A DNA stretch of 64,000 bases from Malania oleifera (taxonomy: Eukaryota; Streptophyta; Magnoliopsida; Santalales; Ximeniaceae), in NCBI RefSeq assembly GCF_029873635.1, contig NC_080422.1:9021764-9085763 (forward strand). The letters run 5' to 3'. The notes beneath the pieces were generated by a model. That model saw only the letters and a program-made list of their open reading frames with translations. It was not told the origin of the DNA and searched no databases. The translations under genes and the position numbers were made by a program. Positions 3,769-54,918 of the stretch are shown here, in pieces (the stretch's first letter is position 1; the number at the start of each line of letters is the position of its first letter).

Positions 3769-5783
3769 TGTTGGCTTTACATGGTTTTTCAATCTTGTTT
3801 TGATGATAACAAATAAAAAATAATCTCATATGAGTTGGTTGAGTGGTGATATTTTAGGATTGAGTATAAGACAAAGTTAAAAAAAAAAAGAATCAAAAGT
3901 ACAAAGAATCACAAAGTCTTATTCACATAGAGAAAAGATTCAACAAGAGAGCTCAAAGCAACTTCAATATGAGCAAAATATGAGGACACTTAAACTGATT
4001 CAGAATTCAAGTCAAAAAGATCTTAAAGAGAAATACCATGGAAGGCTTGAAGAAAAGAATTTTAAAATTTAGGACCATGTTGTAAGTACTTCATGATTGA
4101 ATATCTTTTGAAATAATTTTGAAACTCTTTTAGGTTAATACTGACTTAAAGACCTTATTTCAAAACCCGGAAAATATTTTATAAAGAAGCAAAGTAAGAG
4201 AGCAAAAATGTTGTTTTTGTGAAAACAAAATTGAAAAAACTGAAAGTGGTCTGCCTAGACAACTAAGGAGAATCCTCAGACGACTGAAGAATTTCTTCAG
4301 AAGTCTGAAGATTAAAATCAGAACACTGAAGATTTTATTTTTGAATTGAAACCCAGAATAGGAAGAACGCCTTCAAATATCAGAACGGTCAGTTCAGTCG
4401 TCTAAACACAAACTTCAGAAGTCTAAACCTACGCTTCAGACGTCTGACCCTGTATCTAGTTCAAATTTTTCAAAACATTAAGGAACCTGAGACTACTAAA
4501 CCCGATACCTCAGACGTCTGAACACTGTTAATGGTTAGAAATTTTAAATGTTTTAAATTTCAAATCAAGGTTACTTGTGCTCCAAAATTAATAAAAACTT
4601 GGAAGATACTCCAAGTAAACTTGGGCATCACAAAAACACATTTTTAAACCTATAAATATATGGTTTCACAAATCAAAATATATATCAAGAATTGAAAATT
4701 TGAAAAAAGTTGAAAGCACTCTTGTTCTTACAAAGCTCTCTCTTGCTCACTCATTGCAAAATTGATTTGCTCAGATAATCTGAAGTGTTGAATCCATTCT
4801 ACTCTTGTCTTTACTATTGATCCTCATCTAAGAAGGAACCTTGGTGAAATCTAATCTTGAACTTCATCTTATTTCACTTTCATATTTAAATTTTGAAGTA
4901 CATTGTGTTGAATTTGTACTAATCTTCTCTGTTTGAGAGTGTTATTGTACGCAAGTGTTTATTTTGTGTTTCTTGTAGCTCTTGGACAGTTTGAGGTTGA
5001 TTTGGATCGTTGCCCAAGTGTGGGGTATTGCTTGGAGAGGTGATTACTCTAACCTAGTGAAGGAGTGTTTGTAAGGGTTTTGTTCCACTTGGAAAGGAAC
5101 GGGTTTAGTGGAATCCTTTGGTGGTTTGCCAAAGGCGGGGACATAGGTTGAGGATAAGCTGAACCTTGTAAAAATTGCAGTCTCCTTCTTTTCTCTTAGT
5201 CTCTTTAAATTCCACCAAACATATAAACTATGTGGACGTTTTAGATTCCTTAATCATAAAAACTACGTAGATTGGAAATTAAATAAACCAAAGTTTAATT
5301 TTGATTTGGGATTTTGAAAACCAGAAAGGGAGTACGTCAGTTCATCAATACTTTGCGGAAACCTTAAGGAGAGTACTTTGATTGGTTAACACTGAATGAC
5401 AAAATAACTAAGAATTTATTTAAATTCTGAGTTGCTAGAAATTTGAGTCGTCGTTTGACTTGAAGACAAAAATTTCATTACTACAGAGCTTAAATCAAAT
5501 TTATATATGTAGGGTTGTTAACAAAAGTTGAGAATTGTTCTAAAGCTTTCTTGATTGAATGTTTGATTGATTGGTTACATCGTTGGTATATGGTTGCGGA
5601 TTGAATATTGTTTTTGAGAATTGTGTAAAGTCTTAAGTATTTGTTGTGTATTGGATAAACCAACAAGAAGTCAAGAATTCGTTGAAAGAATTAAAAGAGG
5701 TTAAGGATTCTTGAAAAGTATTAAAACAATTTTTTAAACCCAATTCACCCCTCCCCCTTCTTAGGATTACACCTTAGTTTTCA
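3769..5783 (+). repeat. 5' LTR of element A
   Basis: The LTR starts TGTTGGCTTTACATGG and ends TTTTCA, directly followed by the primer-binding site. It is about 2.0 kb long. The opening phrase on a 'cttgttttgatgat' theme and the closing 'caattcacccctcccccttc' phrase recur in the other SIRE-type LTRs of this window (B, E1-E4). Confidence 0.8.
4245..4660 (+). promoter_or_regulatory. Element A U3 promoter: CAGACGTCTG palindrome array plus TATA box
   Basis: Between about 4250 and 4530 at least eight exact or near copies of CTTCAGACGTCTGAAC occur. The best are near 4437 and 4501, with variants such as CAGAAGTCTGAAG and CAGTCGTCTAAAC. The array is followed at 4651-4660 by TATAAATATA. The unit is a perfect palindrome around GACGTC. 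The position just upstream of the TATA box makes a transcription-factor array the natural reading. Confidence 0.7.
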
Positions 5784-7713: not shown

Positions 7714-9376
7714 TAATTATCACTTGTTAAATCATCAGGACCCAAGAAAGTATAGGTGCCTAGATGAACAGTCCAGTTCATAAACTAAGGATCCTAAGAT
7801 ATTTGGATTAGTAATTCCCCTCCGCCTAAAATTTGTAATCCTCTCAATGTCTCATTTGACCAATTGGACACATAAAATTAAATGGCATTGCTTGGTGTGG
7901 CATCAATGGCTTGGGTCTCATATTACTTTAGTGGTCAAAATATTAGTGCAATATCTTCTGATTGGAGGGTTGGCCCATCGTTTTTTAAATTTTCTCTTAG
8001 ATTCATTTGGCCTATGTTGGCTCCCAAGGTCTTTTATCCGTTACCCTCTCTCCTCAATCTCTGGGTTAAAATTAGATACCTCTAACATATATGGGTGTCT
8101 CATACTCTAATTATTGAAATCTTACTGTAAAATCCTAATTTTTACATAACTAGTTTAATAATAATAATTGCAGCTTAATTAATTATTTAAAGTTATTTGA
8201 TAACGTAAGTCACTTTTATAATTATGGACAAAATCTTCTAAATGTTGAAGTGTAATAGCAATATAAACCCTAAATGACTCAATCTAATCCTCAAAATTAG
8301 TTCCAAATAATGTTTTAATAGGAGACAGTTATATAGAATAGCTGAGAAAATAATAAATAGACGTATTTTTATTCTGAATACAAAACAAAATCATGTCATA
8401 TACATAATTTTCTCACTATCTATTTGACCATAGGGTACAGATCAAACACCCCAAGTAATGGGAGTCTCACCCAAGAATCTCATACTAATATGCTAGTTAA
8501 ACCAATTTTTTTTAGGGTCAAATTAATTTCAGGGTACCCACCTAAGCGTATCAAGCTATAATGCCTAACAAAAATCATCTCAAAACAAAGCCAAGTAATT
8601 GAATATCATTCAACCCAAAATTCGTTAAAGAATATACTTGAATCCCTAAATGTATACTTGGCCGTTTTGCCAAAACAAAAAGGAAAGGGTCTCTTTCGGT
8701 AACATGGCCCACCACCCAAGATGAATTGTTTCATTCAAATTAATTAGGCACACAAGTGTTCTCTAGAAAAAGTACTCAATTTAATAAATGTTAATAATAA
8801 ATATTGAACTGAAAAAATGTTGAAAGTTATAAGTATTAGTTGGTTGTACTTGAAAGAATTGATATTTGGTACTTACTTTTATTATTAAACACTATATGAT
8901 TTTTTTTTTAATATATTTTAATTTATAAATATTAATATTTTTTAATTAACAATTTCACTAATAACTATTTTAATAATTTATCATTAAAATTTAAATATTT
9001 ACAATTTTAAAAAGTATAAGATTTTTATTTTTAATAAATAATAATCTTATTATTAATGTATATTTATATCATATTACTATCATATAAATTAAGATTGAAA
9101 TAATACTATTAATTCATTTAATGTTATTTAAATCAATTAGTTCTTGTTCAATCCCAAATTTAATTATAATAATTAACATGTATTTTTAAATATATCATAA
9201 ATAAAAATATTTATATTTATATCATTGAAATTTTAAATTATAATTACATTAATTTCATAGTTAAAATTTAAATATTTTCTATTAAATATTTAATAATCTT
9301 CATTTTTTCGACTAGACTGAGGTCATTTGACCTAAGTTGGCTATTCAAGTCGATTGACTTGGACCTAGTTCAAGTT
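7714..9376. other. Non-coding, AT-rich spacer between elements A and B
   Basis: The first 90 bases still resemble the gag-protease linker of SIRE-type elements. From about 7800 to 9376 nothing coding was recognised. The part at 8800-9300 is extremely AT-rich. Confidence 0.5.
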
Positions 9377-10377
9377 TGTTAGCCCTAGTGGCGAGGGTTC
9401 TTCATTCAAACTTGTTTTGATGATAAAAACCCATGAGTGGTTCTTGGGTTAGCTAATCTTTTTCCTCAAGTTCAATTCAAATATACAGGTGGATACTAAA
9501 GCAAGCAATAAGGATCAAACGAACCATGATGAAGCAATGAGTAAAAGCATACACAAGGAATACTCAAGGCACAACCAACTGAAGACCACATGATGTTTTA
9601 TATGTATAAAGGGTTTTGTGTAAGGTAGGATATTCCTGTGATATTGGTAAGAATACTTAGCAAGAGTTGAGCAAGTGCATCTACATGTTAGTTCATAGGA
9701 TATCTCTAACAAACTTAATAAGTTTTCAAGAATATTTTTACAAGATATCCCATACTTAAATATATGCCTTTAGCATTCATTTTATAGATTGATTGAAGCA
9801 TTTAGTTGTTGAGAAAATTAGTGAAGCATTCATTCTAGGCCTTACTTGCTCAAGCTCTCTTGCTATTTATTCTTAGTTATATATCATTTGCTGAAAAAGA
9901 GTAGTGTAAGGTTTCATTTGTATCATCAGCTCAAGAAGGAGCACCATTTTTTAATCTCTACATTCTTTGTTGACTGTGATTCTTGAAGGTTCTTGGTGAG
10001 CTTTCGTTAAGATGATTCTTGGTGAACACAATGGTTGTAAGCTCTTGGTGAGCAGCTGGGTTTTGTACCCGTGTTGTAAAGGGTTCTCCGCCTTGAAGGG
10101 GATTGCTTAGTGGATTTGGGAATCCCTGAGTTGGACTCAAGCCGTGGAAGTAGGCTTAGTGCCGAACCACGTTAACATCGTCGTGTTAAGCTTATCTTTC
10201 CTTTGTCTTTCTTACTTTACTTACTTGTTTTTATTTTCTTTCAAATATATGGGGATATATCACTCTTGCTTCTTGCCAAAGAATTTTTGTATATGTAGAA
10301 AAATTGATTATCTGCAACGAATGTCTATTCAGCCCCCTCTAGACACACACCCGGGTCGACAAGTTGTGTCTGAGCCA
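9377..10377 (+). repeat. LTR of element B
   Basis: It runs from TGTTAGCCCTAGTGG to GAGCCA, about 1.0 kb. It shares the early phrase 'cttgttttgatgat' and the late 'cttggtgagc...gtaaagggttctccgcc' region with SIRE-type LTRs. The primer-binding site after it is disturbed: ATTGGTAGACCATCAGAG instead of ATTGGTATCAGAG. A TATA-like sequence lies near 9597-9612. Unlike the other long LTRs here it shows no clear palindrome array and may have lost it. Confidence 0.65.
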
Positions 10378-11237: not shown

Positions 11238-11289
11238 AATAGTGAAGACGTTTAAGCATATAGCAAGAGGGAAGATGGCTTGGTACAAG

Positions 11290-11415
11290 ACCAAATAGTT
11301 AACGGTTTTAGGGAACACTGAAAAACCGTCGATGGTTTCAGACGAGAAGATAGTTTTAAGACCAAACCATCAACAGTGTCATAAAACTCAGAAAAATCGT
11401 CAACGGTTTTAGATG
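11290..11415 (+). promoter_or_regulatory. AACCGTCGACGGTT-type palindrome array upstream of the B accessory ORF
   Basis: About five half or near-full copies are seen: AACGGTTTTAG, AAACCGTCGATGGTTTCAG, CAAACCATCAACAG and AAATCGTCAACGGTTTTAG. They lie between the pol end and the accessory ORF. The consensus is a GTCGAC-centred palindrome. The copies are decayed mostly by C-to-T and G-to-A changes at CpG. Confidence 0.5.
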
Positions 11416-11546
11416 GGCTGAGAATTCTTTAAGTCATTGAAATCTTAAATTTTTTAATCCCTCACCCTCTCTATTTTGTTCTGCTCTCTCGAAGACCCTC
11501 TCCAAACTCCCTCCTCTCCTTTGCCCATGGTTAATAATCATTCTCC

Positions 11547-12713
11547 ATGGCTCCCAAGCATGCTCACAGTGAAGCCAGCTCCTCACGGAAGAAATCCAAA
11601 GCAGCTCAAGATCCCTCACCCTCTCCACCTCCTAGTAACTCATCTTCACCAATATCTGAGGAATATGAATCCTCTCCTCGGTTTGAAGAACATAAAAAGA
11701 AGTGTTCTGAGGATTGGCAACGTCTCTTCTCCTCCCTAGAAGCTTGCCAGCAATACCTATTAGTCACTTCACAAATGAACATTATAAGTAGCAAGATTGT
11801 TCCATTCACTTTCCTTCAAACGCACCTTACCATGTTCATTTCTAAATTTAGGAAAATTGGTTGGGAATTTTTGATGACTTACGATGAGTATGTATTCCCT
11901 GAACTAGTAAAAGAATTTTATGTCAATTTTGTTTTTGGCACCCCCGAGGAACCCACACATTCAATTGTTAAGGGTGAGGAAATTTCTCTAGATGTTGAGA
12001 CCCTATGTGAGATACTCAAATGTGACCGCTATGACATTACCAGTCTCCTGAGCAAAGGATGGCAAATGCATATAGCTTGGTTCGACCCTCATGTTGCATT
12101 AAAGTTAGTTACTAGAAATCCTCAAATACCAGCAGTAGTTAAACCAAAAGCCAAGGACCTGACTATAGACTTTCGGGTCTTGTATCATATGATCACCTAC
12201 AATGTCCGCCCTAGGCACGGGGGACGTGACATAGTGACTCTAGCCGATATTTTCGTGATGTATTGTGCATGGCACGACCGAGGGATTGATCTGTCGTCTT
12301 TCCTGGTGCACGTCATGGAAGCTAATTTACGCAAAAAGAATGGATGTCTACCCTATGGTTGTCTCCTTACATCCATATTCAACCATTAAGATGTACGAGC
12401 CACAAGTTCTAAATAGGAATCTCCTAGACCAAAGGATCAAAAATCGAAAGCTACCTTGCAATATATGCATTTTGTAAAGGATGCGCAAACCTCACTATGG
12501 ATAAAACCAAGGCAACAACGAGCGCCCATTATTGAGGACCAGGAAGAAATGGCTAAAGAAGCCGCAACTGCAGAGGACCCTAACGCCTTCATGGACATAC
12601 CCAAGGATCTTGAGCCGACACATGAGCCCATTATGCAACACAAAGAAAAGATGGACCTAGAACATCGTGCTCAGTTTGACTCCATTGACTCCACTCTATC
12701 GGCCACGCAATAG
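11547..12713 (+). pseudogene. Accessory ORF of element B (plant transposon-protein type)
   Basis: A 280-codon open frame begins MAPKHAHSEASSSRKKSKAA, a basic, nuclear-signal-like N-terminus, then a Pro/Ser stretch. After stops at 12387 and about 12414 the same frame resumes to 12713 with a Glu-rich tail. The core (LVKEFYVNFVF, then VKGEEISLDVETLCEIL, then FRVLYHMITYNVRPRHGG, then DIFVMYCAWHDRGIDL) resembles the 'putative plant transposon protein' domain. It is homologous to the accessory ORFs of E2 and E4. The position after pol corresponds to the env-like ORF of Sireviruses. Function is unknown; no signal peptide or membrane segment is seen, so an envelope role is not supported. Confidence 0.7.
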
Positions 12714-29550: not shown

Positions 29551-31554
29551 TGTTAGCTTTAGTGCAATCCCAAGAGGGGGGTGAATTGGTATTTAAAAAA
29601 TTCTTCCTAAGTTTAATTAATTCAGCAAGCAGTATTTCACAAACCTAGGGTCTTTCTACGTATTCACAATCCCAAAAAATTATTCAAATAATAAAAATAA
29701 ACATACAGGTGCAAAACGTAAATTACATAAAATAAAATCAACACCAGATATGTTATTGAAGTTCGGCCAATACTGTCTACGTCCCCGCCTTGGCACACCT
29801 GCACAAGGATTACACTATAAGCTCACTTAACGGGTGGAGCGGTACCGTTTACAACCTGGTCAATTAGCGGGGCTAACCTCAACCTTACCATACCTTACCA
29901 AGATGGTGCACCTAACTTTCCTAACCAAATCTAAACCCGTCCGAAACTATTCAACAGGGCTAGTCTCCCTCTTCAGGCCCACGCCTGGAATACAACAAAT
30001 GTGTATAAATTTTTTAACACAAAAATACGCTTCTTCACAAGCAGATATGTATACCAATTTAACTCAAGCAATAATGCAAGCACGAATGATATGTAAATAT
30101 GCTCAGTGCTCTAATGTGTGCTAAGCACTCTAATAAGTATAGATAATAAATCTAGATCAAGAGTGTATATCAAAGCAAGATCTAAAACATAGTATGTGAA
30201 CATCATAAAATCAGATCAAGGTTTTTAATATGCTTGGCAAGATGATTCAAATAAGCTCAACAAGATGTTCTCAATATACTAAGCACAAGGAGTGTTTGAA
30301 TGCAAGTTTTGAAAATGATTTCGCACACAAAATATAGGCTTAGGTGTCTTGCAATGACAATATTGCAAGAACCACAACCTTCTAAGTCTTCCCACACAAG
30401 ATTTATCAAATAAAAATAGTGTAAGAACTGAATGTTATACTCTCAAATAAAATCAACCAAACAATATAGCAAATGAGAATACTAGCTAGGAAGATTAAGC
30501 ACAATCACTTTAGAAATACTCACAACACTTTAAAGATCAAGGAGAATGGAGTGCATGAGTATTTGGGAGTAGGATAGGCTAAAAAGAGATTTTTGAATTT
30601 GAGAGAATTTTGGCCTTAATCAAATTGCTAATCCGTACTAATTATTGCAAATGAACATATATATATAGGCAAGGAGAAATTTTTGACCGTAGAGGACTCA
30701 ATAGGCATAACTAGAAAAGTTTAAAACAAGTTTAGAAAAATTAACCCACTTTACCCCTTTTAATTTCAGTAAAAATTAATTTAACTAGAGAGATTTGGGT
30801 GCCCAGTCTGAGGTTCGAGTGTTCAAATAGATTCAGTCAAAAAATCAATTTTTAAAGGCTTAGGTGCCCAAAGTCAAGGTCGATTGGCTGAACAAAAGTC
30901 AGAAGCATTTTGTTCGAGGTTTGGGTGCCCGAAACTAGGTTCGGTTAACCAAACCATCCACTTCGGTCACCCAAGGTCTTTTTGAACGCGAATGTTCGGG
31001 TGCCCGGTTTGGTGAAAAGCACTCTGACATGGGTCTGTGTGACCGAGGAAGATAGGTTCAAATTGGTTTGGTCAGCCGAACAAAAAGTCAACAAGTTGAC
31101 CTGTCTAGGATTCGGTCGCCCGACGTGTTTTAAACGCCACAAGTTCAGTCGCCCGAGCTCTCTCAAGTTTTTCAATTTAAAGTCCAATTTTGCTTTATGT
31201 AATTCCCCTAATATAATGAGTGATGGTGGGGACAATGTGTACTAAGTGTAGGTACCTATGGTCCAACAAGGGTCCGTTTGAGCATACCTATCTATAATGC
31301 ATGATGCAAATTATTACAAGTCATACGAGTGTACAGTCCATAATAATATTACATCTAGAATGAAGAAAGTAAAAAAGAATTACAAATACAACACAAACTT
31401 CTTCATTCATCGACACAAACACCGCACACCATCATGATATGTCTTTCAGTTTGAGTACACGCGCAATGTGAACCTGCATGCAAGCCTTAGTACAACCACT
31501 AGTACCAAGAGTATTTGTCATGATCAAAACTGGGTGTGACATATCAAGTCAACA
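29551..31554 (-). repeat. 3' LTR of E2
   Basis: The LTR runs TGTTGACTTGATATGTC (31554 leftwards) to AAAGCTAACA (29551), 2004 bases. It is closely related to the E3 LTR at 39363-41320. The TATA-like run lies near 30655-30668 and the palindrome array just upstream at 30790-31165. Confidence 0.85.
30790..31165 (-). promoter_or_regulatory. TTCGGTCGCCCGAA-type array of the E2 LTR
   Basis: About ten near copies or half sites occur, such as GGTGCCCGAAACTAGGTTCGG, TTCGGTCACCCAAGG, TTCGGGTGCCCGG, GATTCGGTCGCCCGACG and GTTCAGTCGCCCGAGC. The consensus is an imperfect palindrome TTCGGTCGCCCGAA, shared with E3 and with the array upstream of E2's accessory ORF. Confidence 0.6.
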
Positions 31555-32867: not shown

Positions 32868-32944
32868 TGTAACAACCCGAAGAATAATGATATTTAAATA
32901 ATAAAGGGGAATGGAAATGGAAACGGTAATAGAAGGAGGCAGCC

Positions 32945-33202
32945 GACTTGCGTTCATTGACGACATTGCATTTTGGAGGTGAAAATTCCAAAAAAATTTC
33001 CCACGCCTCATCGACGAACACAAGGGTTTTTTCAACGAGGGTTCTTCAGGATTTCGTCGACGAGAACTCGCCTCGTCGACGAGGACATACCGAGAAGGAT
33101 TTTTGGAAGTCTGAAATTTGCCGAAGAAGGTGCAGGTTCGTCGACGAACTTTCTATATGACTCATCGACGAGGTGACGTGGCTCATCGACGAATCCAGCA
33201 GT
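32945..33202 (+). promoter_or_regulatory. TCGTCGACGA palindrome array plus TATA box, G 5' LTR
   Basis: Copies include CTCATCGACGAAC, TTTCGTCGACGAGAAC, CCTCGTCGACGAGGAC, GTTCGTCGACGAAC, CTCATCGACGAGG and CTCATCGACGAATCC, followed at once by TATAAATAG at about 33193. The 3' LTR has the same array at 35512-35765 and TATAAATAG near 35771. Confidence 0.75.
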
Positions 33203-33244
33203 ATAAATAGTTCAAAACTTCGGACTAACTCATAAATTCAGCGC

Positions 33245-33245
<1 letters not shown>

Positions 33246-33312
<67 letters not shown>
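33246..33312 (+). repeat. (CT)n microsatellite in the G LTR leader
   Basis: About 30 CT dinucleotides with two interruptions lie just downstream of the TATA box. A shorter version lies at 35815-35858 in the 3' LTR. Confidence 0.95.
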
Positions 33313-33313
<1 letters not shown>

Positions 33314-33806
33314 CTACGGCCTCTCTTCTATATCTCTTCAATTTCGGTCCCGTCAGTCGCCGGATCGACAATCTGAAGCCACCATGACGCTCCTGGCGGA
33401 GTTCTCTTCAAGTCTACTGGGGCGGATCGTCGGTGGTATCAAGTCGAATTTCTCCCCAGAATCTAAGTAAGGCCTTTTGGTCAATTTTTAGCCTTCTGGT
33501 AGTTGTATGAAATGATGTAAGCAAAGAAATATTGATATTTTGTTCTAGGATTTATGATTTTTAGGGTGTTGAGTAGAGAACCTTGCGGGTGCAGGACCCG
33601 TCTTAGTAAAGGGGATTTTAGCAGAAATCAGGTAAAAGAAATATGTTATGCTTGGTAGTTCTAAAATGATTTCCAGTATGAAATGTATATTTTTACCAGG
33701 TTATTATTCACAGCAGGACTTTATACAGTTTATTAATTGTGAATATTTTGTATTAAATTACTGTGTGGCTTGAGAATATAAATATAGTACAAAAGCATGT
33801 TTTACA

Positions 33807-35433: not shown

Positions 35434-35814
35434 TGTAACGACCCAAAGAATAATGATATTTAAATAATAAAGGGGAATGGAAATGGAAACAGTAACAAAA
35501 GGAGGCAACCGACTTCATCGACGAACGTGACATTACATTTTGGAGGTGATAATTCCAAGAAAATTTCCCAAGCCTCGTCGACGAACATAGGAGTTTCATT
35601 GACGAGGGTTCTTCAAGATCTCGTCGACCAAGTCCCGTCTCGTTGATGAGAACATACCGAGAAGGATTTTTTGGAATTCTTAAATTCATTGAAAAAGGTA
35701 CAGGTTCGTCGACGAACTTTCTATAAGACTTGTCGACGAGGTAACGTGATTCGTCAATGAATCCCGCAGTATAAATAGTGCAAAACTTCGGATTAATTCA
35801 TAAATTCAGCATCG

Positions 35815-35861
<47 letters not shown>

Positions 35862-37451
35862 CAACCTCTCTTCTATCTCTCTTTGATTTCTGTCTCATTA
35901 GTCACCGGATCGACGATCTGAGGCCACCACGATGCTCCTGGCGGAGTTCTCTTCAAGTCTGTTGGGGCGGATCATTGGTGGGATCGAGTCGAATTTCTCC
36001 CCAAAATCTGGGTAAGGCCTTTTGGTCAATTTTTGGTCTTCTGGCAATTGTAAGAAATGATGTAGGCAAAAGAAATATTGATATTTTGTTTTGAGATTTA
36101 TAGTTTTCAAGGTGTTTAGTGGAGAACCCTGCGGGTGTAGGACTCGTCTCAGTAGGGGGGATTTTAGTAGAAATAAGGTAAGGGAAATATGCTCTGTTAG
36201 GTAGTTCTAAAATGATTTCCAGTATAAAATGTATATTTTTACCAGGTTATTATTCACAGCAGGACTTTATACAGTTTATTAATTATGAATATTATGTATT
36301 AAATTACTGTGTGACTTGAGAATATAAATATAGTATAGAAGCATGTTTTACAGTATTTTCAGCGTATGTTTTATAGAATATGCAGCAAGTGGATATATTT
36401 TATAGTAATTACAGAATACCATGATTATATAGTTTTCAGTACCATGATTATACAGTTTCCAGTACCATGACTTACAGATTACAATTCAGTTTAGAAATAC
36501 AGTTGACACAGTTACAGTTTATTTCAGTGTCATGGTTAATATAGTTATTTCAGAATCATGGTAATTCAGATAGTTGTATATAGAAATATATTATATAGTA
36601 TCAAACCCTGTTGGACCACTACAGTTTATAGAGCACGGTACAGTATCTACAGATATTTAGTTCAGAGTGCAACCACATATTCAGATAATACGTGGTAGTA
36701 GGTCGATCGTGCCCAGACGTGGACAGGCTCCCCATCAGATATGGATTGAGGAGTGGCCGATCTAACTGAGGGAGTATAGTGATTTACGCTGGTCGGCCAG
36801 CCAGGGTAGATCTCACCTACGGGCCGTACAACCCTATCATGAGGGGTTAAATCCTGACACATAGTTATCCACGGAGAAGTTTTTAGTTATTATTATGTAT
36901 ATACAGATTTACAGAGACAGAGAATATACTTACGTACATTAGAAGTATTTTGAATAGTAACCTAAAATACTGATATGTTAAGAAACATGGAAATGGTGGT
37001 GATTTCTATTACTTGTACTCTATTCACAGATCCAATTACATATGATTATATAACAACAAACTTTCATAGTATTGTAACTCATTTGCCACACACTAGCAAT
37101 AACATATTTTGTCTTACTGAGCGTTGGCTCATCCCATTACTTTAACATTTTTCAGGTGATCTAGGTAGGCGAGCAAACAAAACTCACAGGTAGAGGGGCC
37201 TCAGTATTGCCCTGTCAGTGGAGTGAGTATTTTTAGGAGTATTTTTGTATAGCCCTAGCCAGTTAAGGGTATTTTGGGAAACATTTTAGCACTTTGGCAT
37301 TGTATATAATTACATGTGGTTATTTTTATTTGATTTCTACTTCTCGCTGCTTAGGTTGATGATTGGGTTTAATCCAATGTGGTATCAGAGCAATATAAAT
37401 CGTATAGTATTAAAAAAAAAAACCCCCCAAGATAAATAGCAGGTCGTTACA
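35434..37451 (+). repeat. 3' LTR of G, complete
   Basis: The LTR is 2018 bases, TGTAACGACCC to GGTCGTTACA. Its R/U5 part has a degenerate repeat of 'agtaccatgattatacagt' near 36415-36560 and ends in a short A-run and C-run near 37410-37430. Confidence 0.9.
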
Positions 37452-38229: not shown

Positions 38230-38595
38230 ATATAACAGCGCGGTTCGGGCGCCTGATCATGGGTTCGGTTGGCCGAACTGCAATAATTGCAAAGCCCACT
38301 GAGTCTGCTTGGTTGATCGAACAATGGATCGGTCGGCTGAAGATTCAAAGCCATTTTACAAAATCGATGCTCAACAGCCCGAACTCAAAATGAGCTGTAG
38401 AGTTCATTCGCCCAAAATGCACATTTGATTACCTGAAATTAAATTAGGTTGCTCAATCCTGGTTTGGAAGCCTTAATGGATTTGAACTATACAGTTTTGG
38501 CCACCCGAGGTATGGTCAACACAATGGTCAGACATCCAAGTTCGGTCACCCGAAGTGCCAAAGCACTGAAGGGTTCGATAACCTGAACTTGGTCC
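38230..38595 (-). promoter_or_regulatory. TTCGGTCGCCCGAA-type array upstream of E2's accessory ORF
   Basis: On plus, copies include GGTTCGGGCGCCTGA, GGTTCGGTTGGCCGAACTG, GGATCGGTCGGCTGAAG, GTTCATTCGCCC, GTTCGGTCACCCGAAG and GTTCGATAACCTGAAC. The array begins about 130 bases before the accessory ATG (at 38104, minus). The motif is the one found in the E2 and E3 LTRs. Confidence 0.6.
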
Positions 38596-44811: not shown

Positions 44812-45768
44812 TCACATAATTCTTTCTTAACATTTAGGATTGGCTATAGGGGGTAGTGTTGACTAAAGGCTTAGGAAGTGGTTTGGGCTGAAAATGTAAA
44901 ATACTTAGTATATGTCCACTATTTAAAATTTTACATACTAAGTAAGTTGAAAAATCAAGCCAATCTACAAATCCAAGTATATAACTAATCTGAACTTAAT
45001 GCATATATTCATTGGTTGAAATATGAAATTATTGGCTTCTTGAATAAAAATCCACTTCCAAATGGACGAGGCAATTGTGCCTAGCATATTATTCTTAATG
45101 TTTAACTCACGCTTAAAAATGAATATCTTAAGTTAACCAATTGTTGTCCATCACACAGAGATGAGCTTCAGGGGTTCATTATATTCTACATATCTTTAAC
45201 CCTAATCTTAGTGATCAAAATTTTAGTCATCACTCTAGGCTTCAGCACTAATGATCATTAGTCCCTATTCCAACTAGTGCTTACTCAAAGACATCTTTCC
45301 ATAATCAAAATTAGAGGCAACTACTAAGGGATTCTAGTTTCACCGATTAACCAAAATATTCCCTTTTGTGCTTAAAATATAAATATCTTCTAATTTTGGT
45401 TCGCCATCCTAACCATAGGAACTCTTTACCAAACCACGATCATATCTGGTAAAGACTATACCTATCCATCGGTTTGTATCCTTGCTACAAATCATGATCA
45501 TATCTATAGGATACTTTCCACTCTCCGAAGAGCGTTATTAAAAAATATTCAACGAAAATACTTTAATTCATGTTCACTTATAATGAATACTCTTCTATCC
45601 TTAATAGAAATTTAATCCTTAAGAGTATTTATCCAAAATTCCTTTCATAAGCTCTCAAACATTAAATCAAATCCATTAGAGCTTTAATTTTTTGAATTAA
45701 GTGAAATGACTAATATGATTGCTATTGGTTTCAACATATATGAAAATGCAATAACTAAGAAACCTATG
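44812..45768 (+). other. E3 non-coding region downstream of gag
   Basis: No protease, integrase, reverse transcriptase or accessory ORF was found. Parts resemble the equivalent stretch after gag in E4 (for example 'cacttccaaatggacgaggc'). It ends at the CTATG duplication beside E4. Confidence 0.5.
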
Positions 45769-48011
45769 TGTTAGAATCGGTGTATTCCCAAGAGGGGGGG
45801 TGAATTGGAATTTTCAAGTTTATCACCTAGGTTAAATAAAATGCTCGTATAAAACAAACTAGGGTTGGTCTATGTAATTCCAAATGCGCAGATATAAAAG
45901 ATATGTGGAAATTTAAGTTAAGCGCATCATTCGCATAATAACATACGCGTGCGGTAAATGTAAAGTGCAGAAATGTAAATAAACACACGATATGTTATCG
46001 AGGTTCGGCCAACAGTGCCTACGTCCCCGCCTCAAGCTCGCAAGCTAGAGGATTCCACTAATAGCTCACTTAAGGGTGGAGCGGCACCATTTACAACCAG
46101 GTCAAATTATCACAGGGCTGACCTCAACCTTAACCAGGTCAATTAGCGGGGCTGACCTCAACCTACACGCCTTAACAGGACGACGCACCTAGCTTTCTTA
46201 ACCGGGTCTAAGCCAATCCGGGACTATTCCAGGGCTAGTCTCCCTCTTCAGGCCCGTGCCTGGAAATACAACCAAAGTGTATTACAATCAAATGGTACAG
46301 TGATTGTGCTTTCAAGTAAAGCAGATATGTACCCAAATTCGCGCAATGATGTACACCACAGTATGATTCAATATGTAAGCTCAATGTGGTCTAAAATGTC
46401 AACTCTCAAATAAATTTACTATCGTTGTAATGAGTGCGTGAGAGTGCAAACCTAAACGATCTTTGTATCACAGGATATTCAATCTAAGTGCTCAAACAAA
46501 GATATTAATCAAACTTCATATATTTCAATCAACGAGTTTTCTCAATACATATATGTATATGAAGCTCTAGCAACGTATAGGTTTGGTTTGCAAAAAGGAT
46601 ATTCAATCTTTGTATTCAGCAAGGGATATATGAGTTAACGAACATTGCAACAAAAATTTTATCACACTAGCAAATATCTCATCAAATATTTTCAAGATAA
46701 AAACACAGTAGATATTTGAAAATATTTTTGCAACCAAAATGCAAATACTAACTTCTTAAGAAATTGCAATGACTATGCAATACTCAGAAGTTTTATATAA
46801 GTCTTCTTAGGAGAGACTTACTAACAAAGTCCCCTAAGAATACTTAAGGTTTGGCTCTCAAAAATAAATCCGACAATCCAGAGATGGGAGAACAAACCAA
46901 TTACAACAAGCACTCAAAATCAACTTACAAATGATGTAGGCAATATGAGAAGGTAAGATTGAGTGTGTGGAGCTTGGAAATGAGTATTATAGGGTTTTGG
47001 ATTTTCAAAGAATTTTCCCTAATCAAAGTGGCTAATCCCCCATTAATCTTTGCAAATGTACCCATATATATAGCCATGGAAGGAAATATGACCGTTGGGG
47101 ACCTATAGGGTATTATTAGAAAATTTTAATGACGTTTAAGGCATTTTAACCCTGTTTAGAAAAATATTAACCACGGTAAAAATTGGACCAACCCGAGAGG
47201 TCCGGTCGACCAAAAGTGGTTCGATCGACCAGGACTCAAGTGGCTCGGTCGACCAGGGGCATTTTGAACTGAGTGGTCGGTCGACCGGGCAACGGCGATT
47301 TCCAAAAATACCGAGGTTCGGTCGACCGGGGCCTTTTTGAACTACAAGGCTCGGTCGACCATACCGCTGGGAATTCTCCCAAGACCCCTCGGTCGACCAG
47401 GTCGTTGGAGTATAAATATGGTCGGTCGACCGGGAGGTCAAACTGTTGACTCCCAGGTGGTTCGGTCGACCGAGGTCAAATGACCTATAAGGGCTCGGTC
47501 GACCGAGCCTGGGTCAAATAGTTGACCCGGACCGGTTTCGGTCGACCGGGCCAAATTGAACTGAATTGGCCGGTCGACCGAAGGTGCACCAAGTGTGCAT
47601 TTCGGTCCCGTATCTACCCAAACAATTCCTATTCAAGTGCCTAACAAATATATGTGAATATGTGTGTGTCCTAAGGTCACTTTGGGGGCCAATTTGAGAT
47701 CACCGAAAAAGTCCGGTGTCGGTCGACCGAAGGTTCACCCTAAGGTCTTTCTACGGTTCGGTTTGAGCTTGCAAATTAAATCATGTTTGTGATGTGTGTG
47801 CTTATTACAAACCGAAGAACCCTAATTACTACTACGGACAATTTTACTGAAAATTATTGCAATTAAGAGTTATGAAATTGTCTTCAAGCCTTTCTTGCTT
47901 TGTGCACATCTTGATCTTATCATTCTTGATTCCTGCACAAAACTCAACCACTCATTAGATACAATGAGTATTTGTCATAATCAAAATCGGGCGTGACCAA
48001 TAAGGTCAACA
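45769..48011 (-). repeat. 3' LTR of E4, full length (2243 bases)
   Basis: It contains a 480-base segment (45841-46320) absent from the 5' LTR, which holds the 'gagggagactagccctg' and 'gaggttcggccaacagtgcc' phrases found in the other LTRs. The TATA-like run is near 47063-47073 (minus). Confidence 0.9.
47190..47730 (-). promoter_or_regulatory. CGGTCGACCG palindrome array of the E4 3' LTR
   Basis: Thirteen copies are counted by eye, twelve with an exact GTCGAC core, mostly 25-45 bases apart. Examples are GCTCGGTCGACCGAGC near 47494, TTCGGTCGACCGGG near 47317 and GTCGGTCGACCGAAGG near 47716. The flanks vary while the central 8-10 bases are kept. The array lies about 120 bases upstream of the TATA-like box on the minus strand. 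Confidence 0.85.
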
Positions 48012-49475
48012 ATCTCCCCCTTTTTGATGATGACAAATACGACAAGTGAAAATATAGGGTTAAGCCTAGCCTAAGAAGGCTCCCCCTCACAATATGCATC
48101 TAATGTATTTAAATAAATAAAACCATTAACCAATTATTTTTGCCTTTTTCATCTCCCCCTTTTGGCACCAGCGAAAAGGGTCACTGGAATTAAAGTCCTA
48201 GGCGATGGGTGTTTAAATACATTTATACAAGGGTAATTTTCGAAAAAGATTTTGAAAAATTTCGGCAGAGTGCCGTTTGTAAATAGAACTTTCCAAAAGA
48301 TATCCTGTATAAGTGTGACCTGTTTGAGTTTAAATTTCCTAACAATTTATCCACAACTACTCAAACAGTTCAGTATGGTCCAATTACAGCAAGTGAAATA
48401 TTAATTATTAACATGAAGTGGACAAGTTGTGCAATAAAGGTATAAGGTGTGCACAAAATCAACATATCTGGTGATACAAGATTCAAATGACATAGCAAAC
48501 CTGATTAAACCAGAAATAGACACAAACCTTTTAACAATGAAAACATATCATAAAACCCGTGGAAGATTTGAGTTAAGGACACACGGCATATGATACCAAA
48601 AAGAGGGTTTGAGCATAAATAAAGTCTAACTAGTTCACATGCATTTTCACATATTATCAATGAACCAGTTATATAATGCAACACCCTTAAGATATTTCAT
48701 GACATAAGATTTCAATACATAGAAGGCACAAGTCATGAAGGCATGTAAGCAAATTAGCAAGACAAACAATATATCCAAATTGAGTTCAATTCTTGCTTTC
48801 ATAGATAGATGTATATATATTCCCTTTAGTATGTGCAAAAGGTACCGAGACGTTGCTTGATGAAAAAGAGAACTTCTATTTCAAGATAATCAAGCAATAT
48901 TTTTCTGGATTGTCAATTATGCAATGCTAAATCATGACCAGAAAAATCATAACCATAATGATCCAGAAATGTAGGATTCACATGCATGATCATATGGCAA
49001 ATCAAGTAACAGTGGCAACAAGAACATGTTTCAATTCTATGATGAAGGCATTCCATTTGAGCACAAGCCACACTTGATTAAAAAATACACCCAATCCCAA
49101 CATATTTTATGAGCAAGACAAGATGGACATTTATTTTTAGATGCTCCCCCTAAAAGTATGCAAATTATGAAACAATTACTTCACATGAATATATACATTT
49201 GGCACACACAAGTAATTGTTTTGATTATTTGGGCAAATGCCTACAGAAAATTCGGCAGCATGCCGGCTGTAAACAGGACATTTCCCAAATTTTACCTGCA
49301 CAAAAACGCTCTCAAACAGACAATATTATAGAAGTAGGGCGCACGAGAACCTATCATCTACCAGCAGGCAATTCTCAACAACTGCATCCGCCATGCAGTA
49401 GGCATTTTATACTACTCAGGCATTTCAATATTATACACAATTAACCACAAGAACATGCACGTCAAGAACCTAAAG

Positions 49476-49670: not shown

Positions 49671-50854
49671 CTAGATCTCTCCTCCATCCTCTCCTCCATC
49701 ACCACCATCGGCGGCATCAAAATCAAAATCCATCGTCATCCTATCTCTCTCATCCTACATCTCCTGAATGCGATCACTCAACTCACTAAAGCCAGCTGTC
49801 ATGGTCCGCTCCAAGTCTGTAAGGCGGCTATCAGTGGAGATGGAGTGCTGCTGGAACTCCTGCCGAAGTGCAGTGGATGACGATGCAAGATCCTGCAAGT
49901 CAGACTGTACTGATCCTCGAAACTGTATGAACATGTCTGACAAGCCGGAGATAGCAGCCATGAGATCTACCATCGATGGTTGTGGAGGCTGTGGTGGCTC
50001 CTGTGGGGCCCCAACATGTGCTACTCTAGAGGACGCCCAAACGTTCCCTACGAGCTCATACCCCATCAGTCTAAGGGTCACTTCAGAGAAGGTGTCCACC
50101 GGTCGTCTCCTCTTCAGTGAAGCCACATTCGTCCTCGTGACTCCAATGCTTCTAAACAATTTGTTCAGGATACCTCCATATGGCATGATCACTCGGTGGC
50201 CAATCGTCTTGGCCATCATCCATCGGATAATCAAGCTTGGCAGGTCCAACTTCTTCCGAGCAAAGAGGCACCACATGACGAAGCAATCTAAAAAGGAGAC
50301 GTGCACTCTAGATCCCGCCTTGGGCAAGATATTATACGTGATCAGATGATGCACGATCTTAGCCTCTAAGCTGAATTGTCTATACTGGGGAGGATGGATC
50401 TGGCTAGCAGTGCCAGGGTCAGACATGGTCAGATTGGCGAATGTGGCTACGGTAAATCCCTGATCAAGGATCCAGGTGTTACCCACCTCGAGGCACTGAA
50501 AATCACCACGGCCAATGTCGAGGACTTCAGAGATATATTGTGCATCAAAACGCACATCTGTCCTTAGAACACGAGAGAAATACCCGTTCTCATCATTGCC
50601 AAGTTGGCATAAAACATCCTAACGAACGTCGGGTAATGTCCCCCAGGCTGGTAGGAGATAAATGATCTCCACCCCTGATACTCGAACATGTCTAATATAT
50701 TCTGAAAATATTGACCCATAAAGACTAAGTCGAGTATCTTACCAAGTATAACCTCCTTGGGACAGAACTCCCGTATGTACCGCATCTTGCATCTGTCAGA
50801 GAGAAAGTACTCATCCTCGGCATGTGCAAGATCGTGAGGTTTAATGTGCGCCAT
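49671..50854 (-). pseudogene. E4 accessory ORF, nearly intact (one frameshift, one late stop)
   Basis: It starts MAHIKPHDLAHAEDEYFLSD (50854), passes MGQYFQNILDMFEYQGW and YPTFVRMFYANLA, and shifts frame near 50575. It then runs 266 codons (50555-49755): MRFDAQYISEVLDIGRGDF, FSLEAKIVHHLITYNILPKA, FLDCFVMWCLFARKKLDLPS, RLMGYELVGNVW, a Pro/Gln linker and a coiled coil (from LMAAISGLSDMF to FSELSDRIQEM). After a TAG the same frame gives an Asp/Gly/Glu tail to 49671. The core resembles the 'putative plant transposon protein' domain, the family seen downstream of pol in Sirevirus-like elements. Homologues are in B and E2. No membrane segment is seen. DNA binding is a hypothesis suggested by the adjacent array. 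Confidence 0.7.
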
Positions 50855-50964
50855 GGGAATGATGATGTGAGGCTAGGATATTAGGAAATACAAGAAGGGA
50901 ATGGAAAGTCTCTCGAGAATTTCGCGCAAATGAGCTGAAAATGAAGAGATTCAACATTTATATC

Positions 50965-51240
50965 GCAGCTCGGTCGACCAGGAGTAGATACGGTCGACCG
51001 ACGCTTGAAAGTCCCCAAGTATCGACACCTTTCGGTCGACTGAGGCGAAAATGAACTGGGATGGCCGGTCGACCGTAAGGGTGTATTATGCCATGTTTCG
51101 GTCGACCATGGGGAAACCAAAACTGCCGGTCGACTGAGACATTTCGTTCATGAAGGTTTGGTCGACCGTGAAGGGTCAAAGTCAACATGGCTGGTCGACC
51201 GGGGCATTTTATAACTATAGTGCTCGGTCGACCGAGCATA
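50965..51240 (-). promoter_or_regulatory. CGGTCGACCG array directly upstream of the E4 accessory ORF
   Basis: Nine copies are counted: GCTCGGTCGACCAGG, ATACGGTCGACCGACG, TTTCGGTCGACTGAGG, GGCCGGTCGACCGTAAGG, TTTCGGTCGACCATGG, GCCGGTCGACTGAG, TTTGGTCGACCGTG, GGCTGGTCGACCGGGG and GCTCGGTCGACCGAGC. The array ends about 110 bases before the accessory ATG. It is the same palindrome as in both E4 LTRs. Confidence 0.8.
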
Positions 51241-51807: not shown

Positions 51808-53100
51808 CTAAGGAAATATATCAAGCATTATTTTGATTTGAATTTTTCTTTCCTTAAGTCCTACGAGATTTGCTTCGCTGATTATCCATCTCATTTCCGT
51901 TTCTAGTCCTCTCACACTTCTTAGTAAGCAATTAAACCATGTATGCCACACATATTTGCAAAATAAGCAGGTATAGAATATACATGAAGGATTGTGCTTA
52001 TTTATTCCATTTTTCTTTAGTGAGACTAGACTATCGGTTCTATGTAAGCAACCTGAACCCTTTTTGAAATGAGTTTTCTTTTTAGATCCGAAGGGTTTAT
52101 TATGATCATTCATATCATTTTTAATCTCAAGAGCAATTTTCGAATAATCATCTGTTTCTTCATCCAAGCATGCAATATTCAATATCTTCTCAACCTTTTT
52201 CTTTTTAAGAATAGCATGAAGATTTTTCAGCCCCTTTAATTGTTTCGCTATTCTTTTGTTCTCATTCTTTAGGCGTATTTCATGCTTAGAGATTCTAACT
52301 AGAAGCTTGTGCATTTTCAATAAAGTCTTTTCTAGTTCTTCATGTGATAGCATGCTTTTAATATTCAGCTTAGCACATGATCCACCAAGAGAATTGTCAC
52401 AACAGTTTTCATACAAATCATTGCATGCATGCTCAATAGGGCTATCATGAAGCGCAAGGGATGATTCATTCCATAATAAACTACAACATTCAATATATGA
52501 ATCATCACAAACATCATTATCAAAATTATTATGATATTCAACAGATGGTCCAGCGTTTGATATGTCACACAAGCAAATATATGATTCATCACAAGATTTT
52601 TCATGGTAAACATCGCATGAACCATATGCAACATTATCAGCAGATGATTCAGTATATGACCCAATATAGCATTTATCACAGAGACCATTAAACGGGCTAA
52701 AGTGAGAATCATATACCTCGCCGTTGATGTCTAACTCATGAATTACCTCCTCTTGATCATTTGGAGGAGTTACCATCTCTGTTTCTTGGGATTTTTCATA
52801 TTGCTTTTCTAATTCATCCCAGATTTCCTGTGCAGTCTGATATACTACAAACTTGACAAAGATATCAGAATCTAACGCAAGATATAACATGTTCATGGCA
52901 TCATAATTAATCATGTTAAAATCATTTTCATTTATTTGTGCACATCTTCCTTTGGCAGTCACAAGCCAGACCCTCCAGTCCATAGATTTCAAGAATATTG
53001 TCATTCTAACCTTCCACATGGTGTAGTTGACACCACAAAATACTGGAGGACTGGAAAGTGACTGTCTCTCAACGAATGGGGATACACCAATGTGAGCCAT
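51808..53100 (-). CDS. E4 gag, intact 430-residue SIRE-type capsid protein (shortened)
   Basis: It starts MAHIGVSPFVERQSLSSPPV, with FCGVNYTMWKVRMTIFLKSM and DWRVWLV typical of the DUF4219-like N-terminus. NMINYDAMNMLYLALDSDIF and TAQEIWDELEKQYEK follow (first half of the UBN2 core). It then jumps to a Cys/Asp/Asn-rich acidic stretch (about residues 115-260), a coiled coil (about 265-320) and one zinc knuckle CLFCKYVWHTWFNC (Cx2Cx4Hx4C). The second half of the UBN2 core and one knuckle of full-length relatives are missing. The frame is uninterrupted and begins 43 bases after the primer-binding site, so it may be expressed. Intact gag forms the particle that packages element RNA. Confidence 0.85.
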   Translation of the reverse strand: MAHIGVSPFVERQSLSSPPVFCGVNYTMWKVRMTIFLKSMDWRVWLVTAKGRCAQINENDFNMINYDAMNMLYLALDSDIFVKFVVYQTAQEIWDELEKQYEKSQETEMVTPPNDQEEVIHELDINGEVYDSHFSPFNGLCDKCYIGSYTESSADNVAYGSCDVYHEKSCDESYICLCDISNAGPSVEYHNNFDNDVCDDSYIECCSLLWNESSLALHDSPIEHACNDLYENCCDNSLGGSCAKLNIKSMLSHEELEKTLLKMHKLLVRISKHEIRLKNENKRIAKQLKGLKNLHAILKKKKVEKILNIACLDEETDDYSKIALEIKNDMNDHNKPFGSKKKTHFKKGSGCLHRTDSLVSLKKNGINKHNPSCIFYTCLFCKYVWHTWFNCLLRSVRGLETEMRWIISEANLVGLKERKIQIKIMLDIFP

Positions 53101-53142
53101 TGCGATCTTTTTACAAAAACGTTTAAGTCAAGTGCAACGAGG

Positions 53143-53155: not shown

Positions 53156-54918
53156 TGTTAGAATCGGTGTATTCCCAAGAGGGGGGGTGAATTAGAATTT
53201 TCAAGTTTATCACCTAGGTTAAATAAAGCAGATATGTACCCAAATTCGCGCAATGATATACACCACAGTATGATTCAATATGTAAGCTCAATGTGGTCTA
53301 AAATGTCAACTCTCAAATAAATTTACTATCGTTGTAATGAGTGCGTGAGAGTGCAAACCTAAACGATCTTTGTATCACAGGATATTCAATCTAAGTGCTC
53401 AAACAAAGATATTAATCAAACTTCATATATTTCAATCAACGAGTTTTCTCAATACATATATGTATATGAAGCTCTAGTAACGTATAGGTTTGGTTTGCAA
53501 AAAGGATATTCAATCTTTGTATTCAGTAAGGGATATATGAGTTAACGAACATTGCAACAAAGATTTTATCACACTAGCAAATATCTCATCAAATATTTTC
53601 AAGATAAAAACACAGTAGATATTTGAAAATGTTTTTGCAACCAAAATGCAAATACTAACTTCTTAAGAAATTGCAATGACTATGCAATACTCAGAAGTTT
53701 TATATAAGTCTTCTTAGGAGAGACTTACTAACAAAGTCCCCTAAGAATACTTAAGGTTTGGCTCTCAAAAATAAATCCGACAATCCAGAGATGGGAGAAC
53801 AAACCAATTACAACAAGCACTCAAAATCAACTAACAAATGATGTAGGCAATATGAGAAGGTAAGATTGAGTGTGTGGAGCTTGGAAATGAGTATTATAGG
53901 ATTTTGGATTTTCAAAGAATTTTCCCTAATCAAAGTGGCTAATCCCCCATTAATCTTTGCAAATGTACCCATATATATAGCCATGGAAGGAAATATGACC
54001 GTTGGGGACCTATAGGGTATTATTAGAAAAGTTTAATGACGTTTAAGGCATTTTAACCCTGTTTAGAAAAATATTAACCACGGTAAAAATTGGACCAACC
54101 CGAGAGGTCCGGTCGACCAAAAGTGGTTCGATCGACCAGGACTCAAGTGGCTCGGTCGACCAGGGGCATTTTGAACTGAGTGGTCGGTCGACCGGGCAAC
54201 GGCGATTTCCAAAAATACCGAGGTTCGGTCGACCGGGGCCTTTTTGAACTACAAGGCTCGGTCGACCATACCGCTGGGAATTCTCCCAAGACCCCTCGGT
54301 CGACCAGGTCGTTGGAGTATAAATCTGGTCGGTTGACCGGGAGGTCAAACTGTTGACTCCCAGGTGGTTCGGTCGACCGAGGTCAAATGACCTATAAGGG
54401 CTCGGTCGATCGAGTCTGGGTCAAATAGTTGACCCGGACCGATTTCGGTCGACCGGGCCAAATTGAACTGAATTGGTCGGTCGACCGAAGGTGCACCAAG
54501 TGTGCATTTCGGTCCCGTATCTACCCAAACAATTCCTATTCAAGTGCCTAACAAATATATGTGAATATGTGTGTGTCCTAAGGTCACTTTGGGGTCCAAT
54601 TTGAGATCACCGAAAAAGTCCGGTGTCGGTCGACCGAAGGTTCACCCTAAGGTCTTTCTACGGTTCGGTTTGAGCTTGCAAATTAAATCATGTTTGTGAT
54701 GTGTGTGCTTATTACAAACTGAAGAACCCTAATTACTACTACAGACAATTTTACTGAAAATTATTGCAATTAAGAGTTATGAAATTGTCTTCAAGCCTTT
54801 CTTGCTTTGTGCACATCTTGATCTTATCATTCTTGATTCCTGCACAAAACTCAACCACTCATTAGATACAATGAGTATTTGTCATAATCAAAACCGGGCG
54901 TGACCAATAAGGTCAACA
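53156..54918 (-). repeat. 5' LTR of E4, with 480-base internal deletion
   Basis: It matches the 3' LTR at about 99% but lacks the segment equivalent to 45841-46320. The breakpoints share TAAA. Length is 1763 = 2243 minus 480, so there is no other net length change. The palindrome array is at 54100-54640. Confidence 0.9.
54100..54640 (-). promoter_or_regulatory. CGGTCGACCG palindrome array of the E4 5' LTR
   Basis: Thirteen positions match those of the 3' LTR one for one. Substitutions since insertion within or next to motif copies are C-to-T or G-to-A type (GGTTGACCGG near 54330, GGTCGATCGAGT near 54404, GGACCGATTTCGG near 54436, TTGGTCGGTCG near 54474). Confidence 0.85.

Follow-up and report, generated by a model that had tools for sequence, protein, structure and literature searches.

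The 64,000-nucleotide stretch of Malania oleifera DNA analysed here (contig NC_080422.1, positions 9,021,764 to 9,085,763; referred to as the window) contains the LTR elements E4, E2, E1a and E1b. The main features of E4 are given in the table below together with the arrays found in E2 and E1b. The 5′ LTR/PBS junction of Sireviruses, CA/ATTGG/TATCAGAGC, is exact in E4 (53157), and the poly-C integrase signal near the LTR end is present as CACCCCCC at 53189. Polypurine tracts of the sequence AGGGGGAG are located at 49151, 48160, 48087 and 48021, the final one being joined to AT/TG at the 3′ LTR. In addition, the palindromic repeated-motif array that marks Sireviruses is present in the LTR of E4 and again in front of its env-like gene. 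The Pfam scan found no zf-CCHC match in the E4 gag, and the PF14223 match of the same gag is sub-threshold (E 7.4e-5).

Features in the window. Positions are those of the whole stretch; mismatches refer to the palindrome named.
Feature	Position	Strand	Evidence or remark
E1b internal array, AAACCGTCGACGGTTT type	11271..11430	+	4 sites with ≤4 mismatches; between RNase H remnant and accessory ORF
E1b accessory ORF	11538..12389	+	PF20167, 72.9 bits, E 3.9e-20
E2 LTR array, decayed TTCGG-4-CCGAA type	30790..31165	-	mismatch scans
E2 internal array, decayed TTCGGTCRCCCGAA type	38230..38595	-	mismatch scans
E4 3′ LTR	45768..48011	-	carries foreign insert 45841-46313
E4 LTR arrays, 13 palindromes each	54110-54636 (5′ LTR, U3), 47203-47729 (3′ LTR)	-	≤2 mismatches
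E4 accessory (Sirevirus env-like) ORF	49671..50863	-	PF20167, E 2.5e-11, 44.2 bits (cut-off 45)
TATA-like hexamer, possible internal promoter	50957..50962	-	9 nt past E4 internal array
E4 internal array, nine CGGTCGACCG-type palindromes upstream of accessory ORF	50965..51240	-	mismatch-tolerant site scan
E4 gag ORF	51808..53127	-	PF14223, E 7.4e-5, under Pfam cut-off
E4 5′ LTR	53156..54918	-	98.9% identical to 3′ LTR over 1698 bp

Between gag and the accessory ORF of E4 there is neither room nor an ORF for pol. A gag gene with 79-83% identity lies upstream of all four other E4-like accessory genes examined (L022, L023, L027 and L029, read together with L030-L033), and no RT or RNase H match was found upstream of these four. 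Since gag without pol was thus seen in five of five copies read, the pol-less form represents a family and not a single damaged copy. The array and the accessory ORF directly follow the end of a Copia RNase H in related families (L021 and the eight elements L038-L052 with the palindrome type P3, see below), which identifies the accessory ORF as the post-pol "env-like" gene of Sireviruses; E1b retains an RNase H remnant at this position, and none was found within the 900 bases read in L036. By its sequence features, E4 is classified as a non-autonomous, pol-less Sirevirus (Ty1/copia) consisting of gag and the env-like ORF. The accessory ATG of E4 is located at 50854-50852; the reading frame is broken, with two overlapping frames near 50.6 kb followed by a stop that comes earlier than in other copies. 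Copies of the E4-like accessory gene with an open frame are present elsewhere in the genome.

The internal array of E4 contains nine sites with at most one mismatch to CGGTCGACCG (50971-51234). A Markov model of the internal-array stretch, in which sites with up to two mismatches were counted, yielded a mean of 0.34 and a maximum of 4 in 2000. Exact copies of CGGTCGACCG number 18 in the window and 0 in 100 shuffles, and the paired-palindrome pattern has 8353 forward-strand matches across the 1.49 Gb genome, versus 0 for the reversed control. Chance clustering of the palindromes was ruled out by shuffles, Markov model and expected counts. The nine palindromes in front of the accessory ORF and the 13 in each LTR, as given in the original prediction, were therefore recovered far over chance, and the array, which was said to end about 110 bases before the ORF, is followed by the ATG after about 117 bases. 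A TATA-like hexamer is located 9-29 nt past the final site in all nine E4-family copies (E4 included). Among 11 elements of other types, scanned up to 160 nt past the final site with slightly differing words, a single match was obtained (L042, TTTAAA); in L021 a TATATA word stands, by eye, before the final site. Helical phasing of the sites at 10.5 bp was rejected (R = 0.44, no peak relative to other periods), as was AGTTCA as a second conserved spacer word, which is enriched in just two of four arrays.

To compare the arrays between families, the genome was searched with two queries. The E4 accessory piece gave 11132 candidates, 136 of which were scored, and the E1b accessory ORF gave 9985, of which 137 were scored. 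Eight copies were picked from the 136 for their spread of identity, ten from the 137 for stop-free frames and identity spread, and four more were chosen to fill the range of 51-71%, giving 22 elements, four of which (L022, L023, L027, L029) were also read farther upstream. In all eight E4-like copies the gene is preceded by 7-10 CGGTCGACCG sites. Seven of them also have a downstream array of 9-13 CGGTCGACCG sites, with at most one site in between, and in six of these seven the downstream array lies within a correctly oriented LTR, the LTR of L025 being inverted. The ten more distant stop-free copies carry TCGTCGACGA on both sides in eight cases and CCGTCGACGG on both sides in L036; none was found in L034. 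A blind palindrome scan ranked TCGTCGACGA top downstream in all eight elements and first to third upstream, where 3-8 sites are present. In L036 the same scan placed CCGTCGACGG first downstream and no lower than third upstream. For E4 it ranked CGGTCGACCG top on the upstream side and second on the downstream side, and for L021 it put CAGACGTCTG first on both sides. Altogether, the two arrays share their palindrome in 17 of 17 evaluable elements, which comprise seven P1 (CGGTCGACCG), one P2 (CAGACGTCTG), eight P3 (TTCGTCGACGAA) and one P4 (AAACCGTCGACGGTTT) pairs. The proposal that the motif switches with the family in both places at once is thus borne out over four palindromes and about four lineages, and families with unrelated motifs in their two arrays, which would have spoken against it, were not encountered among the 17.

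Outside the pair count are E1b, the decayed E2, L034 and six further loci. In L025 (G000:C13:80579050-80583354) the LTR downstream of the E4-like accessory gene belongs to the same family and has the right palindrome but is inverted relative to the gene, and the locus was therefore left out of the count and of the LTR alignment. L026 has no LTR array in the stretch obtained, L060 has an upstream array only, L056 a weak upstream array and none downstream, and L058 a downstream array only, with no RNase H upstream. In L054, AAACCGTCGACGGTTT-like sites are found upstream and TTCGTCGACGAA downstream; its downstream stretch (L055) looks by eye like an inverted Gypsy-type element, and L054 would be a genuine exception should this identification be mistaken.

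In the accessory-protein tree, support is 100/100 for a clade of the P3 elements and 87/86 for a grouping of the P1 copies. E1b and L036, which are of type P4, form a grade outside P3, and the placement of L021 is unsure, with 31% of its columns filled. The arrays follow these protein families. The number of independent lineages is about four, and agreement would arise by chance in 1 of 24 cases if labels were dealt randomly among the four. Set against phylogeny, co-switching alone is thus weak evidence, with about four lineages and one evaluable element each for P2 and P4. Better evidence than this lineage count comes from the LTR backbones. P3 and P4 LTRs (L038 and L042 versus L059) align at about 72% outside the array and have different palindromes, which shows that the palindrome was replaced within recognisable LTRs; the P4 palindrome is also found in the upstream array of L036. 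A further combination was observed in L016 (G000:C1:7602500-7612499), in which an LTR backbone and gag of the E2/E3 type are joined with E4-type palindromes in both LTRs. Neither an accessory gene nor an internal array was found in L016.

With up to two mismatches, TTCGGTCGCCCGAA was found in the E2 LTR at 31111 and 31144 and upstream of the E2 ORF at 38264 and 38541, where 0.04 sites are expected per whole window. With up to four mismatches there are seven sites in the LTR and seven upstream of the ORF, all badly decayed, and in the blind scan of E2 this motif was not the best on either side. The matching arrays claimed for E2 can therefore be upheld as an excess of matches in both places, but they are decayed and would not have been chosen blindly; E2 is weak support for the shared-palindrome layout. 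The 5′ LTR of E1b (window 9373-10361) aligns with the parts of L036 and L059 that flank their array, and the array stretch itself is absent from it; L036, the relative of E1b, carries the AAACCGTCGACGGTTT type on both sides. The E1a LTR has CAGACGTCTG-type sites (window 4275-4522), the same type as on both sides of L021.

Within a family the upstream array and the LTR array of the same element resemble each other beyond the palindromes. In a spacer-shuffle test the observed score was reached by 0-10 of 200 shuffles in 12 of 12 tests (eight P3 elements and four of eight P1 elements). This spacer similarity suggests that the two arrays probably originate from one ancestral array. The two arrays of one element are not more similar to each other than arrays taken from different elements of its family (P = 0.15 in P3; P = 0.73 in P1, with L025 among the eight). 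For this reason ongoing gene conversion between the two arrays of an element was rejected. Most simply, the array would have been duplicated once when each family arose, and the two copies maintained separately since then. The original prediction had named an LTR piece moved by recombination as the result that would overturn it. Common descent of the arrays is indeed probable given the shared spacers, but a simple transfer agrees neither with own pairs that are no closer nor with palindromes that diverge less than the spacers. A duplicate that was replaced or rebuilt at every change of palindrome calls for one factor that reads both arrays.

The conservation of the sites was compared for nine upstream arrays of the E4 family and for seven LTR arrays (L025 and L026 omitted). 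At non-CpG columns of the upstream arrays, pair differences are 0.071 in the palindromes versus 0.181 in the spacers (column permutation P = 0.0016), and at CpG columns 0.140 versus 0.322 (P = 0.0024); under circular shifts of the palindrome mask the observed position ranks 3 of 264. The LTR arrays show 0.110 versus 0.207 at non-CpG columns (P = 0.0012); at their CpG columns palindromes and spacers do not differ significantly (P = 0.157), and under circular shifts the observed mask position comes 22nd of 520. The C-terminal part of the accessory ORF has a median dN/dS of 0.18 (36 pairs among nine copies), which indicates that the accessory protein is under purifying selection in the pol-less family. 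Column conservation and low dN/dS together suggest that the palindromic sites and the protein are both maintained in a family that lacks pol. These data bear on the possibility that the internal array was simply copied from the U3 array of the LTR, or the reverse, when the family arose, and has no function at present. The likeness of own arrays beyond the palindromes is what such a copy would leave behind. It would predict neither that palindromes are conserved over spacers at the non-CpG columns of both arrays, nor that own pairs are no closer than other family pairs, nor that 7-10 upstream sites are kept in eight of eight E4-like copies. Common descent without function is therefore already disfavoured, and we consider it unlikely.

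The function of the env-like gene of Sireviruses is unproven (PMC3414828, in the part available). The accessory proteins were scanned for PF20167 (Transposase_32, cut-off 45 bits), which was passed by L022 (46.0), L044 (63.6), L036 (85.1), L040 (66.1), L034 (101.9) and E1b (72.9); the pieces of E4 (44.2) and L021 (15.5) are below the cut-off, and no match was found in two E2 pieces. In four E4-family copies the ORF is 397-402 residues long (433 with an upstream Met in L029). The usual hydropathy threshold for a transmembrane stretch is 1.6. Across 19-residue hydropathy windows the highest mean is 1.22-1.26 for L022, L023, L027 and L029, none of which showed a transmembrane-like stretch, and the C part of L021 reaches 1.50. 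The four E4-family proteins contain a KRRR basic patch, and their last 60 residues have a charge of -13 or -14. Judged from these sequence properties, the E4-family accessory protein does not resemble an envelope, and its features would fit a regulator acting in the nucleus. Pfam scans recognised no DNA-binding domain in the accessory proteins, and DUF1985 and DUF287 gave no match at E up to 0.1 in those scanned; a DUF1985 search of this genome found none, and none was found in the control genomes either. Searches with the E4 accessory piece returned one protein-database match, from Malania oleifera, with 84% identity over 16% of the query. The E1b ORF gave no protein-database homologues and matched none of the solved structures searched. 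A structure model of the accessory protein, built with five window pieces, had a mean pLDDT of 42.8, was useless and was kept out of the fold searches.

Two further occurrences of the domain were observed. PF20167 stands beside PF00190 in P0001, a Malania oleifera protein annotated as germin-like, which might be a gene/element fusion or an annotation artefact. L034 (G000:C1:122630218-122631912) has a stop-free PF20167 frame with the best score of those scanned, and no RNase H, LTR or palindromes were seen in its surroundings. It looks like a PF20167 ORF that is not part of an element, and is perhaps a domesticated copy.

The TTCGTCGACGAA array is not confined to Copia elements. A Gypsy chromovirus is inserted in E2 (LTRs at window 32868-33806 and 35434-36352), and its LTRs carry eight and seven TTCGTCGACGAA-type sites with up to three mismatches. 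Over about 195 bp they are 62-70% identical to the LTRs of Copia P3 elements, with E values down to 6.6e-19 among the matches listed. This similarity extends beyond the palindromes, since in 11 of 16 comparisons the observed score is above that of every one of 200 spacer shuffles. Three of the remaining comparisons are reached by 1-9 shuffles and two, both with L042, are weak (12 and 31 of 200). For the P1 control family the score against the Gypsy LTRs is reached by 11, 82, 146 and 111 of 200 shuffles. No PF20167 gene was seen for the Gypsy element. The shared array was either moved between the superfamilies, possibly as an exchange of a regulatory module, or arose by convergence on one complex site. 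The Gypsy element can accordingly be using the Sirevirus factor, or a host factor can be common to both. L055 (G000:C1:58069958-58071458) appears by eye to be another Gypsy-type element, in inverted orientation, in which TTCGTCGACGAA-type sites lie next to chromodomain-like coding sequence; it has no match to the Gypsy LTR of the window at 1e-5.

This layout has been reported before. According to the accessible portion of the study by Bousios et al. (2010), 13 Sireviruses have family-specific palindromic repeated motifs (RM) in their LTRs; in the nine with an ENV gene, 77 of 79 extra motif copies are located upstream of ENV, and the four ENV-less elements have RM arrays in the LTR and no linker copies (PMC2829016). 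A Sirevirus of Vitis carries CGGTCGACCG itself, comparison with databases mainly recovered sites of stress-related factors, and an internal ENV promoter is discussed; Sireviruses are moreover very abundant in some crop genomes (PMC2829016, same portion). An LTR array can thus occur without an accessory gene of its own, as it does in the Gypsy LTRs of the window and, in the text available, in the ENV-less Sireviruses (PMC2829016).

We consider it probable that one common trans-acting factor reads both arrays. The palindromes would then be binding sites for one sequence-specific factor, which would act at the U3 promoter of the LTR and at an internal promoter of the post-pol env-like ORF. Our best single guess, with a little under even confidence, is that this factor is the env-like (PF20167) protein itself, acting at both promoters. 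The self-binding step is drawn from the layout, the co-switching and the precedent of VANC (PMC5735166, as far as available). The protein would probably bind as a dimer, because the sites are palindromic, and might increase transcription or release it from silencing, both for the element as a whole and for its own gene, a sign of action that we infer; it would be a regulator and not an envelope. Counted in favour of this reading is that the internal array goes with the env-like gene (L016 lacks both; the 13 elements of Bousios et al., 2010, PMC2829016, in the portion available). The agreement of the 17 pairs, the palindrome change between alignable P3 and P4 LTRs, the conserved palindromes, the low dN/dS in a pol-less family and the sequence properties of the protein are on this side as well. 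Counted against it are the lack of a recognised DNA-binding domain and the LTR arrays kept by ENV-less Sireviruses (PMC2829016, same portion). Further points on this side are the Gypsy LTR array, the absence of a TATA box outside the E4 family except for TTTAAA in L042, and the shared spacers, so that common descent explains part of the match.

The palindromes could instead be sites for host transcription factors, perhaps stress-related ones, that serve both promoters; families would then differ because they adopted different host factors, and the env-like protein would have another role. We regard this as a substantial possibility, though not the favoured one, and it keeps this weight mainly because the Gypsy LTR shares the P3 array, common to both beyond the palindromes. 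The mainly stress-related sites and the RM arrays of four ENV-less elements in the excerpted 2010 study fit it as well (PMC2829016). It does not account easily for the internal array accompanying the env-like gene (PMC2829016, same excerpts; L016) or for arrays that track accessory-protein families, and a full change of palindrome between related LTR backbones is fast for conserved host factors.

The palindromes might also form RNA hairpins or be sources of small RNAs, that is, silencing targets and not promoter sites. In favour of this idea, maize small RNAs have been associated with the palindromic parts of Sirevirus LTRs. The arms are 5-8 bp long, presumably giving weak hairpins, and silencing targets would predict neither an array in front of the accessory gene nor a switch in both places. 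This explanation is therefore very improbable.

Combining the factor model with the Gypsy and pol-less data, we tentatively propose, as one of several possible scenarios, that the env-like gene of plant Sireviruses encodes no envelope but a sequence-specific activator or anti-silencer, which binds the palindromes of its family in the LTR and at its own internal promoter and co-evolves with them as a matched pair, and that the array is a portable module shared by unrelated Gypsy elements. If this is true, Gypsy elements with the array may ride on the Sirevirus factor, and pol-less elements would retain the gene because a helper of another family cannot supply the matching factor.

The core layout described here is a rediscovery of the 2010 description of Sireviruses, which the original prediction had missed. 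The additions are the co-switch over four palindromes in one genome, the conservation, the retention in a pol-less family and the Gypsy link. Both studies find many copies of family-specific palindromes at two places, ahead of the TATA box in the LTR and in front of the env-like gene (PMC2829016, in the portion available). The earlier study compared one element per family from many plants, whereas many copies with four types from one genome were compared here; the pol-less family and the selection test belong to the present analysis, and the CAGACGTCTG and TTCGTCGACGAA types, unlike the Sirevirus RM, are without the CGG-CCG signature (PMC2829016, same portion). Its authors suggested known regulatory factors and an internal promoter, and binding by the env-like protein is not among the claims in the text available (PMC2829016). 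Among the open-access papers listed by our searches, no title or abstract opening proposed that the env-like protein binds these motifs.

Other plant elements share parts of the arrangement. Gene23 of maize Grande likewise lies after pol as an accessory gene, is driven by a promoter of its own and has a product located in the nucleus; Grande is a Gypsy element, the gene is antisense, and the accessible part of the report does not describe a shared LTR array (PMC7264820). The TRP28 ORFs of Retand are post-pol accessory ORFs with predicted DNA binding and family-specific tandem repeats in the same region. They differ in belonging to a Gypsy element, in being antisense and in having another Pfam domain, and a match of the repeats to the LTR is not described in the available excerpts (PMC11963269). 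PF20167 is also found in an LTR element in the Athila-type ORF, which is of Gypsy origin; neither an array nor DNA binding is reported in the part of that paper at hand (PMC11728184). VANC of the Arabidopsis VANDAL elements is, in the excerpts available, an element-encoded protein with short tandem motifs that vary fast between relatives; it belongs to a DNA transposon, contains DUF1985 and DUF287, and its binding has been demonstrated, whereas the protein described here has PF20167 only and binding is inferred (PMC5735166).

The four palindrome/protein pairs in one genome lead to a simple question, namely whether each protein binds its own palindrome and not the other three. If it does, plant retrotransposons would control their transcription through a circuit that they encode themselves, as complex retroviruses do, and the fast change of the palindromes would be explained. 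The foamy viruses, animal retroviruses unrelated to the elements described here, encode Tas in a 3′ accessory gene, and the Tas sites differ between the LTR promoter and the internal promoter. The arrangement of E4 parallels theirs in layout only: in foamy viruses the transactivator is essential for both the LTR promoter and the internal promoter (PMC8670036, as far as available).
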